DNA from: Ruminococcus sp.
GTDB lineage: Bacteria; Bacillota; Clostridia; Oscillospirales; Ruminococcaceae
Direction of reading: 5' to 3'
Length of the DNA stretch: 64,000 nt
NCBI RefSeq assembly: GCF_017464355.1
Contig: NZ_JAFUAG010000004.1
Coordinates: 124,001 to 188,000, forward strand
Below are positions 11,248 through 15,222 of this stretch, in pieces. Below the pieces are notes generated by a model. The model saw only the letters and a list, made by a program, of their open reading frames with translations. It did no database searches and was not told the origin of the DNA. The position numbers and the translations under genes are program-made. Position 1 is the stretch's first letter, and each line of letters opens with the position of its first letter.

Positions 11248-12615
11248 TTATTTTATATCGAATACTATCGTTGCCAGCACAAAGAACATCAGCGTTGAAC
11301 AGGTATCAACTATAGTGGTTATAAGGGGCGCTGCCATGATAGCGGGGTCAAGCCTGAGCTTTTTTGCAGCCATGGGGAGCATTGCAGCTATGAGCTTTGA
11401 AAGTATGACTGTCAGCAGGATAGCGCCGCTTACGGTGAATGCCAGCTTATAGCAGTTAACGGAAGCGTCACTGTGATAAACCAGTATTATCCTGCCTGCA
11501 TTGACTATGGAAAGTATTATGCCGCAGACGATGGCTATGCGGAATTCCTTGAACATGACCTTGAAGAAGTCACGCATATTTATCTCACCCAGAGCCATGC
11601 CTCGGATCACGAGAGTAGAGGTCTGGGAACCGCAGTTACCGCCTGTACCGCTGAGCATGGAAAGGAATGACACCAGCACGGGGACAGCCGCAAAGGCTTC
11701 CTGATAATGGTTAACAACCGCACCTGTCAGGGTAGCGGAAAGCATAAGAACCAGCAGCCACATGATACGGTTCTTGGCGTGCTTGAAGACAGAGGTCTTG
11801 AAATAAGAATCCTCACTGGGGGCTACCGCTGCCATTTTTGAGAAGTCCTCGGTGGTCTCCTCTTCGATAACGTCCATGGCATCATCGTAGGTTATGATAC
11901 CTACAAGGCGCAGGTCCTTATCAACTACAGGTATGGCTGCAAAGTCATACTTAGCCATTTTTGAAGCCACGACTTCCCTGTCCTCCAGGGTGTTCACGGA
12001 GATTATGTTGGTCTCCATGATATCTTCTATCTTGTCTTCTTCATCTGCCGTGATTATATCCAGCAGAGAAAGAACACCTATCAGCACACGATCCTCGGTA
12101 ACGTACAGGGTGTAGACAGTTTCCTTTACCACACCTATGTGTCTTATCCACTCAAGGGCTTCACGGGCAGTGTAATCCTTTTTCAGGTAGATATATTCGG
12201 TAGTCATCACCGAACCTGCACTGTCCTTGGGATATTTGAGTATCTGATTTATCTGCTTTCTTGTTTCACTGTCAGCAGAACGGATGATCCTCGCCACCAC
12301 ATTGGCAGGCATCTCCTCGATGATGTCAACAGTATCGTCCACATACAGGTCATCAATGACCTCCTGCAGCTCCTGATCTGTGAATGCATTTATCAGCATC
12401 ATCTGCATATCGCTGTCCATATAAGCAAAAACATCGGCTGCGATGTCCTTGTTCAGCAGGCGGAAAAGCAGTATAAGATCACGCTTGTCGGCCTCATGGT
12501 CATCATGAAAACGCTGCAGCAGCGAAGCAACGTCCGCCTCGTTCATATCAATGAATATCTCGCGTATGCTTTTGAAATTTCTATCTGTCAGAAGCTGTAA
12601 AACCTTTTCATACAT
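11248..12615 (-). CDS. mgtE: Magnesium transporter MgtE
   Basis: 455 aa. ATG at 12615 is set by GGGAGG (12629-12624), 8 bases upstream. Order: N-terminal superhelical MgtE_N domain (about 1-125), two CBS domains (about 130-250), then five membrane helices with the pore region SGTGGNCGSQTSTLVIRGMA and the end PAIMAAPLITTIVDTCS. In Thermus the cytosolic domains close the Mg2+ channel when internal Mg2+ is high. Here expression is probably also controlled, because a leader of about 185 bases containing a leader peptide precedes the gene. Confidence 0.97.
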   Translation of the reverse strand: MYEKVLQLLTDRNFKSIREIFIDMNEADVASLLQRFHDDHEADKRDLILLFRLLNKDIAADVFAYMDSDMQMMLINAFTDQELQEVIDDLYVDDTVDIIEEMPANVVARIIRSADSETRKQINQILKYPKDSAGSVMTTEYIYLKKDYTAREALEWIRHIGVVKETVYTLYVTEDRVLIGVLSLLDIITADEEDKIEDIMETNIISVNTLEDREVVASKMAKYDFAAIPVVDKDLRLVGIITYDDAMDVIEEETTEDFSKMAAVAPSEDSYFKTSVFKHAKNRIMWLLVLMLSATLTGAVVNHYQEAFAAVPVLVSFLSMLSGTGGNCGSQTSTLVIRGMALGEINMRDFFKVMFKEFRIAIVCGIILSIVNAGRIILVYHSDASVNCYKLAFTVSGAILLTVILSKLIAAMLPMAAKKLRLDPAIMAAPLITTIVDTCSTLMFFVLATIVFDIK

Positions 12616-12623
12616 AATAACTT

Positions 12624-12760
12624 CCCTCCCAGATGTCAAGGGCTACCATGCACGATCGGTAACAACTGCCGTGATATCATATCAGCAAAAAGTCTGCACA
12701 GGCAGAAAAATGCCTGCACACGGCAGTTAAACACGGTCGGCAATTATCGGCATCGTCCAC
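12624..12760 (-). promoter_or_regulatory. Structured mgtE leader
   Basis: Reading the minus strand, a perfect 10-bp outer helix AACTGCCGTG (12728-12719)/CACGGCAGTT (12673-12664) encloses a second 10-bp stem, TGTGCAGGCA (12720-12711) with TGCCTGTGCA (12704-12695), with two G-U pairs and loop TTTTTC. The leader-peptide stop lies inside the outer helix. The conserved M-box (ykoK) core sequence is absent, so this is not the known Mg2+ riboswitch by sequence. Mg2+ control is inference from the gene it precedes. Confidence 0.55.
12677..12760 (-). CDS. Putative mgtE leader peptide (27 aa)
   Basis: GTG at 12760 follows GAAGGAG at 9 bases, a good ribosome site that serves no other gene. The product begins MDDADN, has four Cys and ends in ADFLLI before a TGA at 12677. 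Acidic residues right after the start are reminiscent of enterobacterial MgtL (MEPDP), where acidic/proline nascent chains destabilise ribosomes at low Mg2+ and switch the downstream transporter on. That parallel is inference; translation is not shown. Confidence 0.5.
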   Translation of the reverse strand: MDDADNCRPCLTAVCRHFSACADFLLI

Positions 12761-12808
12761 TTGTACACACTCCTTCTCTAAAATATTCCGATTGGCGCAT
12801 ATATGTTT

Positions 12809-12837
12809 ATTATACGCTGAAATCTATCTTTTGTCAA
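12809..12837 (-). promoter_or_regulatory. Consensus promoter of mgtE
   Basis: TTGACA (12837-12832), exactly 17 bases, TATAAT (12814-12809): a full consensus match. Start site near 12802, giving a leader of about 185 bases. The remaining spacer up to 12945 is AT-rich without other visible features. Confidence 0.85.
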
Positions 12838-12945
12838 TAATAAATGATACATTGTTACCATATTTTAACCTTGTATTTTGTTTGATTTGTGTAAAATAAT
12901 TGTCAAATTAGTTACAATTTGTAAAAAAAATCTATCGAATTGGTA

Positions 12946-12974
12946 TTGTACTTTTTTATGGATTATGTTATAAT
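12946..12974 (+). promoter_or_regulatory. Promoter of cdaA-cdaR
   Basis: TTGTAC (12946-12951), 17 bases, TATAAT (12969-12974) with an extended TG. Confidence 0.75.
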
Positions 12975-13012
12975 ATAAAAGTATAAATACATAAAAACAA
13001 GGGGTGTGGAAT

Positions 13013-13894
13013 ATGCTTCAGACGATACATGAAACTTTGAATTCAATATGGGGCGTGTTTCTCAATATTCAGATATACGATATAGTTGATATAATCATAC
13101 TCTGGTTCCTGATATATAACGGCATAAAGCTTATCCGCGAAACAAGGGCGCAGCAGCTGACAAAGGGTATCGCGGTGCTGCTTGCCTGCTATGCACTGGC
13201 TTATCTGTGTAACCTGAACACTATACGCTTTCTTCTTAAATTGTGTTTTCAGTGGGGCTTTCTTGCACTTATCATACTTTTCCAGCCTGAGCTGCGGCGT
13301 ATGCTGGAGAAGGTCGGCAGAACAAGGATAGCAGAGCTTAGTTTTCTAAATCCCACAGATTCGACCTCTGATGAGATGAAATGGAACAATGCCATTGAAG
13401 CCATCTGTGATGCTGCACAGAACCTGTCTTCAAGCAAAACAGGTGCGCTGATAATCTGTGAGCGCAAGACTAAGCTGGGCGAGCAGATAGCTACAGGTAC
13501 CATACTCAACTGTACACCTTCGGTGGCTGTGTTCGGCAATATCTTTTACCCGAACACTCCCCTGCACGACGGTGCTGTAATAATGAGAGACGGCGTCATA
13601 CTTGCGGCAGGCTGTTTTCTGCCAAGGCCGCAGAAGGACGAACTTATAAACAAGCAGCTTGGTTCAAGACACAGGGCAGCTATCGGTATGAGCGAGAACT
13701 CCGATGCACTGGTCATAGTTGTTTCTGAGGAAACGGGCGCCATTTCTGTGGCAGAGAACGGCGAGCTTACCAGGGGTTACTCAAAGGAGTCGCTGAAAAA
13801 GCTGCTTACAAACTCCCTTATCACAGATAAGGATACTAATTCCATTAAGGAAAAATCTTTGGCAGGAAGGGTGATATCCAGATGGAAGAAGTAA
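13013..13894 (+). CDS. cdaA: Diadenylate cyclase CdaA
   Basis: 293 aa. It makes c-di-AMP from two ATP. ATG at 13013 has GGGGTG 6 bases before it (a GTG at 13004 lies within it). Three N-terminal membrane helices (to about residue 95) precede the DAC domain with the catalytic motifs DGA (PLHDGAVIM) and RHR (GSRHRAAIG). Overlaps cdaR by 13 bases, the usual cdaA-cdaR pair that controls potassium, osmotic and wall homeostasis. Confidence 0.97.
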   Translation: MLQTIHETLNSIWGVFLNIQIYDIVDIIILWFLIYNGIKLIRETRAQQLTKGIAVLLACYALAYLCNLNTIRFLLKLCFQWGFLALIILFQPELRRMLEKVGRTRIAELSFLNPTDSTSDEMKWNNAIEAICDAAQNLSSSKTGALIICERKTKLGEQIATGTILNCTPSVAVFGNIFYPNTPLHDGAVIMRDGVILAAGCFLPRPQKDELINKQLGSRHRAAIGMSENSDALVIVVSEETGAISVAENGELTRGYSKESLKKLLTNSLITDKDTNSIKEKSLAGRVISRWKK

Positions 13895-15222
13895 AAGAAA
13901 AAAACAAGACCTCCAAAAGGATAAAGCTGATAAAGGACAAGGGCACAGATTTTTCCCTGAGGATACTGGCTTTTATAATCGCGGTCATATCCTGGTTCAT
14001 AATGTCCATAACACAGTTCCCTACCATAAACAAGACTATCATCGGGGTCCATGTGGACTTCAATATGGACGGTACGGTTGCCGAGGAAAAGGGTCTGGCG
14101 GCGCTGAATTACAAGGACAAGACCGTTGATGTCGAGATAAAGGGCATGAACTACGAGATAGGTACCTACACCGAGAACGACCTTATCGCCACGGTAAATC
14201 TTGACAACGTGACTAAAGAGGGCAGCTACAAACTGGATATCGATGTAAAGAGCAGCCACACTACCGACAGATGCACCATTGTTTCTGTAACACCCAGCAC
14301 TGTTGAAGTGGATTTTGACAGGATAACCGAAAAGACCATTCCTGTAACGGCGGAGGCACCGCTGATATCTGCGGAGGACGGTTTCACGCTCAAGGAAACA
14401 TCTGTAACTCCCGACCAGATAACTATAAAGGGTCCCAAGAAAGAGCTTGATAACATAAGCAGAGTTTCTGCAAGGATATCTTCCTCCAGCAAGCTTTCTG
14501 AGGATACTTCCCTGAAGACCGATGATGTGGTCTTCTATGATGAAAACGACAAAAAGCTGGACGATTCAAAGCTGACGATAATTGACAATTCTTCTTTTGA
14601 TGTTAACTTTGTGGTCTACAAGAAGAAACAGCTTGACTTTTCGGTAAATATCACAGGTGCCCCTGAGGGCTTTGATACTTCCATACTTCCCATAAAGCTA
14701 TCTCAGGACAGCGTTTCTATCATAACACCTCATCTGGATGACCCTGATAATGAGAAGATAGTTCTGGGCAATATCCCCCTGAGCGACATCAATCTTTCCA
14801 GGACATTCACTTTCAATGTTCCGCTGGAAACCGGCGAGGTAAATACCAGCGGCAACGATACGATAACGGTAAGCTTTGAGAAGAAAGGATTTTCTTCTGC
14901 TACCTTTACCCTTGATGCTGACAACATCGAGCTTAAGAACGCACCTGCTGCATTTTTAAGTGAGGTAGACAATCAGAAACTGCCTAATGTGATGATGTTC
15001 GGGCCTGAAGATGTCATAGAAAATCTTACAGATGAAGACATACACGCCACGGTATCGCTGAGCGATATCAAGGGCACGGGTTCCTACACCAAGGAAGCTA
15101 AAATATATGCCACAGACAAGAAGAATGTCTGGAGCTACGGTGTCAACGAGGTGCAGATAACAGTTTCTGTACCAAAGACAGAAGATGACAGCAGCAAGTC
15201 TGACTCGTCTTCGGAAGAATAA
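13882..15222 (+). CDS. cdaR: CdaR, YbbR-domain regulator of CdaA
   Basis: 446 aa. A short cytoplasmic Lys-rich start and one membrane helix (about 31-50) are followed by a large extracytoplasmic part made of YbbR repeats (recurring V-P-V / G-x-G-x-Y-x-L patterns, e.g. KTIPVTAEAP and GTGSYTKEA). It ends in a Ser/Asp-rich tail. CdaR binds and modulates CdaA. In many Firmicutes glmM comes next; here it does not, and a terminator follows. Confidence 0.93.
   Translation: MEEVKEKNKTSKRIKLIKDKGTDFSLRILAFIIAVISWFIMSITQFPTINKTIIGVHVDFNMDGTVAEEKGLAALNYKDKTVDVEIKGMNYEIGTYTENDLIATVNLDNVTKEGSYKLDIDVKSSHTTDRCTIVSVTPSTVEVDFDRITEKTIPVTAEAPLISAEDGFTLKETSVTPDQITIKGPKKELDNISRVSARISSSSKLSEDTSLKTDDVVFYDENDKKLDDSKLTIIDNSSFDVNFVVYKKKQLDFSVNITGAPEGFDTSILPIKLSQDSVSIITPHLDDPDNEKIVLGNIPLSDINLSRTFTFNVPLETGEVNTSGNDTITVSFEKKGFSSATFTLDADNIELKNAPAAFLSEVDNQKLPNVMMFGPEDVIENLTDEDIHATVSLSDIKGTGSYTKEAKIYATDKKNVWSYGVNEVQITVSVPKTEDDSSKSDSSSEE

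Follow-up and report, generated by a model that had tools for sequence, protein, structure and literature searches.

The window, the whole 64,000-nt stretch of Ruminococcus sp. DNA analyzed here, carries on its minus strand a gene for the Mg2+ transporter MgtE, whose product scores 456.8 bits against TIGR00400 (cut-off 232.75). The features found upstream of this gene are listed in Table 1. The original prediction had claimed a full-consensus promoter and a 27-codon frame with a good ribosome site, and both are present; the distance that it gave as about 185 bases needs a small correction to 193 bases, counted from the -10 box to the mgtE ATG. The two interlocked 10-bp stems that it described are also there, since AACTGCCGTG and CACGGCAGTT pair exactly over 10 bp and enclose a hairpin of 10 pairs that is followed by a T tract. 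This terminator-like hairpin sits inside the leader ORF and overlaps the 3' strand of the predicted helix P1, so the hairpin and P1 are mutually exclusive; in the window, P1 is the only one of the two helices that opposes it. The p values of P1 and of the second predicted helix, P2, refer to 1000 shuffles. By itself the fold energy of the window leader says little (z -1.62, a value equalled by 12 of 200 shuffles); that the feature is real is shown by its conservation.

Table 1. Observed and predicted features of the mgtE leader region, in positions of the window
Feature	Position	Strand	Basis
Sigma-70 type promoter (TTGACA 12837-12832, 17-nt spacer, TATAAT 12814-12809)	12809..12837	-	12/12 consensus matches
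Shine-Dalgarno (SD) sequence of leader ORF, AAGGAG	12770..12775	-	Sequence
Leader ORF, GTG start, VDDADNCRPCLTAVCRHFSACADFLLI, 27 codons, stop included	12677..12760	-	Sequence and relatives
CGA codon in frame (Arg8), recurrent rare codon of these leaders	12737..12739	-	Codon counts
P1 5' strand (leader SD, start codon, codons 2-4)	12749..12774	-	p 0.044 at this locus (L003)
P1 3' strand (leader ORF end)	12688..12714	-	Predicted helix
P2 5' strand (leader codons 7-14, including one exact 10-bp stem arm)	12719..12742	-	p 0.007 at this locus
P2 3' strand (directly 3' of leader stop codon)	12649..12673	-	Predicted helix
Terminator-like hairpin, 10 pairs (5 GC), in leader ORF end, then T tract	12695..12720	-	Sequence
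mgtE SD region, GGGAGGGAAG	12621..12630	-	Sequence
mgtE, Mg2+ transporter, ATG at 12615	11248..12615	-	TIGR00400, E 7.4e-137; PF01769

The M-box had been said to be absent from this region, and the Rfam search agrees. No Rfam family, M-box RF00380 included, matched the 64-kb window at the gathering score, and none matched positions 12560-13010 at E<=5; an M-box or other Rfam family in the window is thereby ruled out. The same RF00380 model matches 18 distinct other loci (19 rows, L108 being the same as L230).

The genus (a match in 28 of 29 genomes) and a set of named genomes (the best 80 of 508 loci) supplied relatives of mgtE. Many are preceded by a short SD-preceded ORF with a related N-terminus, which starts with VDDADNCR in the R. 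albus group, with MDDASQNTIAPR in R. bicirculans (L013), and with MDAGNNGIKPRS, MDSGSNNKNSKPR, MESGSNSGVIPR and others in further relatives. Within the genus, 11 of the 16 close mgtE orthologues (L003-L018) have the leader, and L004, L007 (R. albus 8), L012, L016 and L018 are without it. In L004 and L007 only about 40 nt lie between the -10 box and mgtE. R. albus AR67 has the leader (L034, identical upstream to L006), and the R. albus 8 locus without it was also met as L035, identical to L007. Among the named loci (L045-L112), 41 of 68 were entered as leader-bearing, and a survey of the family (148 genomes, 82 with a match) gave the leader in 55 of 87 loci (L113-L199), with starts such as MDAGSS, VDICGRS, VEISARS and MESSGGH. 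In addition, a divergent second mgtE of the same genome (L002, 26% identity) has a leader of its own, as do its relatives; these leaders (L002, L019-L029, L031, L032) start with VTN[GS]DSCG (VTNGDSCG, VTNSDSCG) or VANCDSCG.

Held-out loci were searched with a rule built on the window's own family: an SD, an ATG or GTG start, 12-50 codons, Asp or Glu at codon 2, and CGA or AGT in codons 4-15. Upstream of mgtE the rule matched 39 of the 69 loci drawn from the rest of the order, outside the family, and 33 of the 69 drawn from the rest of the class, outside the order, against 1 and 0 for the reverse complements and means of 1.0 (maximum 3) and 0.75 (maximum 4) for 20 dinucleotide shuffles. Upstream of thrS, used as a control, it matched 0 of 30 loci. 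Loci L200-L228 were first run with a looser rule, an acidic residue anywhere in positions 2-5 (19/29), and Asp or Glu at codon 2 was set after them; the clean part of the test is L258-L297 (21/40) and the class (33/69), where three loci (L230, L231, L233) repeat earlier contig loci and 0 of these 3 match. In the phylum sample, for which no specific shuffles were run, the rule was matched in 11 of 30 loci, for example by MDAGSSTGISEDGK and MDPSPLPSSKK; L452 and L454 of this sample belong to the class, and neither matches. The peptide start of the small frame, which the original prediction proposed to compare upstream of mgtE in relatives, is thus conserved order- and class-wide. The leader is not a local invention: it extends to further orders within the class and, in the phylum sample, beyond the class itself.

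The conserved part of the putative leader is the start of the peptide, often MD.GSS. Among 116 family and contig leaders, the start codon is ATG in 71 and GTG in 45, and residue 2 is Asp in 80 and Glu in 12, the Asp2 count being biased because these leaders were chosen partly by eye. At least one acidic residue occupies positions 2-5 in 115 of the 116, and exactly one in 86. The early acidic triplet to which attention had been drawn at the outset is present in the window leader (D2, D3 and D5, with a proline at P9) and is not what the family conserves. Acidic/proline starts (MDPSPLPS, MDSDPLPG, MDPEPLSG) occur in some other lineages and resemble the enterobacterial MgtL peptide. SD-like stretches precede the leaders of relatives, an SD being required by the search rule. 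The C-terminal half of the peptide is variable and carries the RNA pairing.

CGA makes up 108 of the 185 Arg codons in leader codons 2-15, versus 4% in the long ORFs of the window, and AGT makes up 135 of the 247 Ser codons, versus 9.3%. The corresponding values in held-out leaders, 60/92 and 115/181, are biased upward because the rule demands CGA or AGT. The first AGT is in frame in 92 of 93 leaders and the first CGA in 79 of 109 (out of frame in 30), while CGAAGT, wherever it occurs within +6..+51, is in frame (36/36). The codon of the conserved Gly varies, with GGA, GGC, GGT and GGG all present, and in clade A2 the indels between the start and the PR codons are of 3 or 6 nt. Leader-peptide attenuators of the trp/his type likewise combine a leader ORF, an antiterminator and a terminator; here, however, the genes are those of metal importers, and no run of codons for one amino acid was found in the first 14 codons of the leaders tabulated, as an amino-acid leader attenuator would require.

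The P1 search paired the region from -10 to +12, which spans the leader start codon, with +40..+130; a strand at -62..-40 served as control. Each sequence had its helices fitted first and its pairs counted afterwards. Because the 5' window of P1 was centered on the start codon and the 3' window of P2 placed behind the stop, the search itself partly fixes where the helices lie. The same latitude in fitting applied to the shuffles and to the P1 control strand; P2 was compared with shuffles, without a control strand. The 84 held-out leaders used for the helix and terminator figures exclude L250 and L263 as likely chance matches and include 14 leaders that miss the rule and were added by eye, and L230 and L233 among them repeat L108 and L103. 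Among the 116 family and contig leaders, 75 have a P1 at p<=0.05, as do 54 of the 84 held-out leaders; the control strand gives 3 and 3. P1 covers the start codon in 107/109 and 62/66 leaders; in 101/109 and 58/66 its 3' strand stays short of the leader stop (+3). Both positions are partly set by the search window. In P1 the start codon pairs through its first base as A-U in 104 cases, G-C in 44 and G-U in 7, the partner of GTG being mostly C. The U of the start codon pairs with G (105) more than with A (51), as if the lock were kept weak.

P2, in which leader codons 5-16 would pair with RNA 3' of the leader stop, reached p<=0.05 in 58 of 109 leaders and in 28 of 66 held-out ones; 8 of 200 leaders, with no placed mgtE start, are omitted from the P2 and anti-SD analysis. 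P1 and P2 cross in order and seldom overlap. In clade A2 (11 leaders), 90.9% of the cells of both helices are paired, versus 36-50% when the strands are slid. Compensatory changes in the stems, for which the original prediction had also called, are seen in this clade as four pairs changed on both sides; its shuffle control reached the observed values in 9-23 of 500 cases for four of the measures, and for pair types, the fifth measure, in 186 of 500.

Terminator-like hairpins are present in 28 of 116 leaders, versus 2.6 in shuffled sequences, and in 5 of 84 held-out leaders, versus 2.0, which is little excess. Where a leader of a divergent mgtE has a terminator behind it, P2 overlaps the 5' arm of the terminator in 8 of 10 cases (L019, L020, L022, L023, L026, L031, L032 and L195, but not L198 and L199). 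For all terminators taken together the overlap is weak, 9/22 versus 5.9 expected. When the whole leader is covered, the predicted terminator probability is raised or kept in all ten divergent-mgtE leaders that allowed the computation, for example from 0.06 to 0.94 in L025 and from 0.02 to 0.92 in L026; five divergent-mgtE leaders have no terminator by the rule. With a lone ribosome at the leader stop, the predicted probability in L019, L020, L022, L025 and L026 is 0.07-0.72, versus 0.92-0.98 under full cover. A lone stop ribosome would thus leave the terminator less formed, and a model of this kind needs following ribosomes.

Pairing that would mask the SD of mgtE is moderately enriched (23/111 and 17/81 leaders, control 3/52), and the overlap of P2 with the anti-SD strands is weak (38/68, with 29.4 expected). 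The predicted access to the mgtE SD, an analysis that omits 25 of 192 leaders, falls in 43 and rises in 18 of 104 family and contig leaders when the leader is covered (p 0.0007); the shift in the held-out set is not significant (63 leaders, p 0.28). With just one ribosome placed at the leader stop, the predicted access stays unchanged in both sets, and in the window leader this access is 0.33 in all occupancy states.

To see which genes the leader accompanies, an 18-base pattern, ATGGAYDCNGGNAGTAGY (for MD[AST]GSS), was built from known leaders and searched genome-wide. It was found in 22 of 295 genomes of the order and in 10 of 341 of the class, and the reversed pattern in 3 and 2. The pattern occupies 31 distinct places, 26 of which lie on the same strand and 120-226 nt upstream of mgtE; 11 of these were known before, and 15 are in genomes whose mgtE upstream region was new to the analysis. 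Another place (L339) lies before mgtA, the gene of an Mg2+ P-type ATPase, and four are chance. The ATPase piece of L339 is cut by the locus end and hence falls under the TIGR01524 cut-off, its best family being NF011702 with TIGR01524 second. Upstream of mgtA genes above that cut-off, the held-out rule was matched in 7 of 22 loci (L371, L373, L374, L376, L377, L380, L381), a count also obtained without specific shuffles and in which L380 and L381 are near-identical members of one family. The mgtA loci L369 and L370 carry MSDESSSGMEPDG, which lies outside the rule. The putative leader is therefore an associate of Mg2+ importers of two unrelated families, mgtE and mgtA.

Scanning for the M-box gave a match in 15 of 75 mgtE loci without the leader (two of which are repeats, L095 = L231 and L064 = L118), versus 3 of 45 with it, the window among the latter. 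In these three, L108 (= L230), L318 and L329, the two elements are in tandem, with the M-box upstream of the leader. At L339, inspection by eye shows an M-box end and also a terminator ahead of the mgtA leader. The leader and the M-box, being interchangeable or in series before the same genes, would respond to the same signal; the gene association and this exchange suggest that the signal is Mg2+. The M-box senses Mg2+ by RNA alone, unlike a leader ORF.

What the comparison establishes is the conservation of a short peptide with an SD of its own and of the predicted helices P1 and P2, joined in some clades by a putative intrinsic terminator or masked mgtE SD. These sequences give strong support to a regulatory leader peptide ahead of a Firmicute mgtE, and on balance the leader probably serves as a translated attenuator, in which steady translation would keep mgtE off and early ribosome drop-off at low Mg2+ would turn it on. 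With plentiful Mg2+, ribosomes would translate the leader to its stop in steady succession. One that has reached the end would hide the 3' strand of P1, leaving the leader start codon open for continued translation, and the following ribosomes would occupy the 5' strand of P2, so that the terminator or SD-masking fold would form and mgtE would stay low. At low Mg2+, ribosomes would fall off at the slow CGA/AGT codons, with a nascent Gly/Ser/Pro chain that is still short and acidic, after which P1 would close the leader start codon, P2 would form, the terminator or SD mask would be undone and mgtE would be made. P2 would be the ON form, acting as an antiterminator for divergent mgtE and as a competitor of the SD mask in some others, and P1 would make the switch self-locking. 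The trigger of abortion may be the early acidic residues, the Gly/Ser/Pro context, the slow CGA/AGT codons, or all of them jointly.

The destabilizing motifs described in PMC11282234 consist of repeated acidic residues, and the single acidic residue at positions 2-5 in 86 of 116 leaders counts against the drop-off model. The absence of the leader from 5 of 16 close orthologues in the genus and the out-of-frame position of the first CGA in 30 of 109 leaders also count against it, and the sign of the model is harder to reconcile with a hairpin that, in the window, lies inside the ORF. On the same side stand the mgtE SD access that leader occupancy leaves unaltered in the window and not significantly shifted in the held-out set, the lack of effect of a single ribosome at the stop, the modest anti-SD enrichment, the weak overlap of P2 with anti-SD strands and with terminators as a whole, and the small terminator excess in held-out leaders. 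A broader version can be put forward only tentatively: the leader could be an old, phylum-wide ribosome-based Mg2+ sensor, in which an M[DE]xG[SP]S.. start together with CGA/AGT would fail in early elongation at low Mg2+ and P1 would lock a self-sustaining ON state of mgtE or mgtA, with MgtL as a distant relative or a convergent case and the M-box as a replacement or a partner in series.

CGA and AGT are wobble-read (I-A and G-U), and ribosomes of the same leader might instead stall at these in-frame codons, so that decoding or the supply of Arg and Ser tRNA would be sensed. The strong enrichment of both codons, seen also in the rule-biased held-out leaders, and the low acidic content of most leaders speak for such stalling; we consider it unlikely, since the leader is associated with Mg2+ importer genes rather than amino-acid genes, and since the leaders MDPEPLSG (L310) and MDYDPLPI (L308) have neither CGA nor AGT in the first 14 codons. 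The ordered crossing of P1 and P2, which rarely overlap and could coexist, and their covariation would also suit a pseudoknot riboswitch that binds Mg2+, with the ORF secondary. This is quite improbable: conservation lies at the peptide level (SD, start codon, in-frame motifs, 3n indels), a P2 stabilized by Mg2+ would turn the importer on at high Mg2+, which is the wrong sign, and universally conserved unpaired bases were not noticed in the three alignments made. A purely structural riboswitch was rejected on the in-frame motifs and 3n indels. It is very improbable that the leader senses nothing and serves constitutive translational coupling or RNA stability, as the indifference of the predicted SD access to leader occupancy in the window might suggest, because such a role needs neither the class-wide conservation of peptide start, P1 and P2 nor the exchange or tandem arrangement with the M-box. 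A chance ORF with chance stems in one genome, to which the single-sequence fold (z -1.62) would point, is scarcely conceivable and was ruled out by conservation across held-out loci, helix statistics, covariation and the genome-wide pattern search.

Translation-aborting Mg2+ leaders are described from enterobacteria (PMC11282234, PMC8092293). As in the MgtL type, a short, predicted SD-bearing ORF lies here directly upstream of an Mg2+ importer gene and has early acidic residues; in the MgtL model as given in PMC11282234, completed leader translation keeps enterobacterial mgtA off and abortive translation turns it on, with the motif EPDP (Glu2 and Asp4). The likeness to MgtL in logic is strongly supported, because leaders also precede mgtA and some lineages have MDPSPLPS-type starts. 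In contrast to MgtL, the leaders described here mostly have one acidic residue and MD.GSS-type starts, mostly precede mgtE, belong to a distant lineage and have a predicted helix P1 over the leader start codon; moreover, subsets of them would use intrinsic terminators or SD masking, whereas MgtL uses a Rho-dependent terminator. According to PMC8092293, Asp2 and Glu5 of MgtQ, encoded by an 8-codon ORF before mgtB of Salmonella, destabilize ribosomes, and alternative stems free the SD of the Mg2+ transporter gene. MgtQ differs in its peptide and stems and sits between mgtC and mgtB, not in a 5' leader. The sign proposed here, abortive translation turning the importer on, would match both MgtL and MgtQ as these sources present them.

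Among the matches listed from the open-licence literature, with preprints outside its scope, there was no report of such a leader, and one may exist elsewhere. Judging by the passages that describe them, the nearest published cases are the mgtE motif of Thioalkalivibrio (PMC11109978) and the mycobacterial M-box uORF (PMC12810186). The former, SRC-65-1 (Narunsky et al. 2024), is likewise a candidate RNA upstream of mgtE, a riboswitch candidate confined to Thioalkalivibrio; it is set apart by its description, in which no uORF is mentioned (PMC11109978). The latter, uORF2 (rv1805A), is a conserved small uORF downstream of the M-box and before pe20, and it likewise has a conserved, proline-bearing N-terminal region, in a peptide described as specific to mycobacteria (PMC12810186).

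If the attenuator reading is true, these systems have a counterpart on the scale of a class, ahead of mgtE and mgtA in anaerobes of the gut and rumen, ribosome integrity would be a common gauge of Mg2+, and the control of mgtE where the M-box is missing would be easier to explain. The conserved short peptide and the two testable helices would also give access to the nascent-chain and codon features behind early ribosome failure at low Mg2+. As a side observation, divergent neighbors on the plus strand (13004-15222) adjoin the Mg2+ transporter gene of the window. We take these genes to resemble cdaA-cdaR, a c-di-AMP synthase and its YbbR-domain partner.
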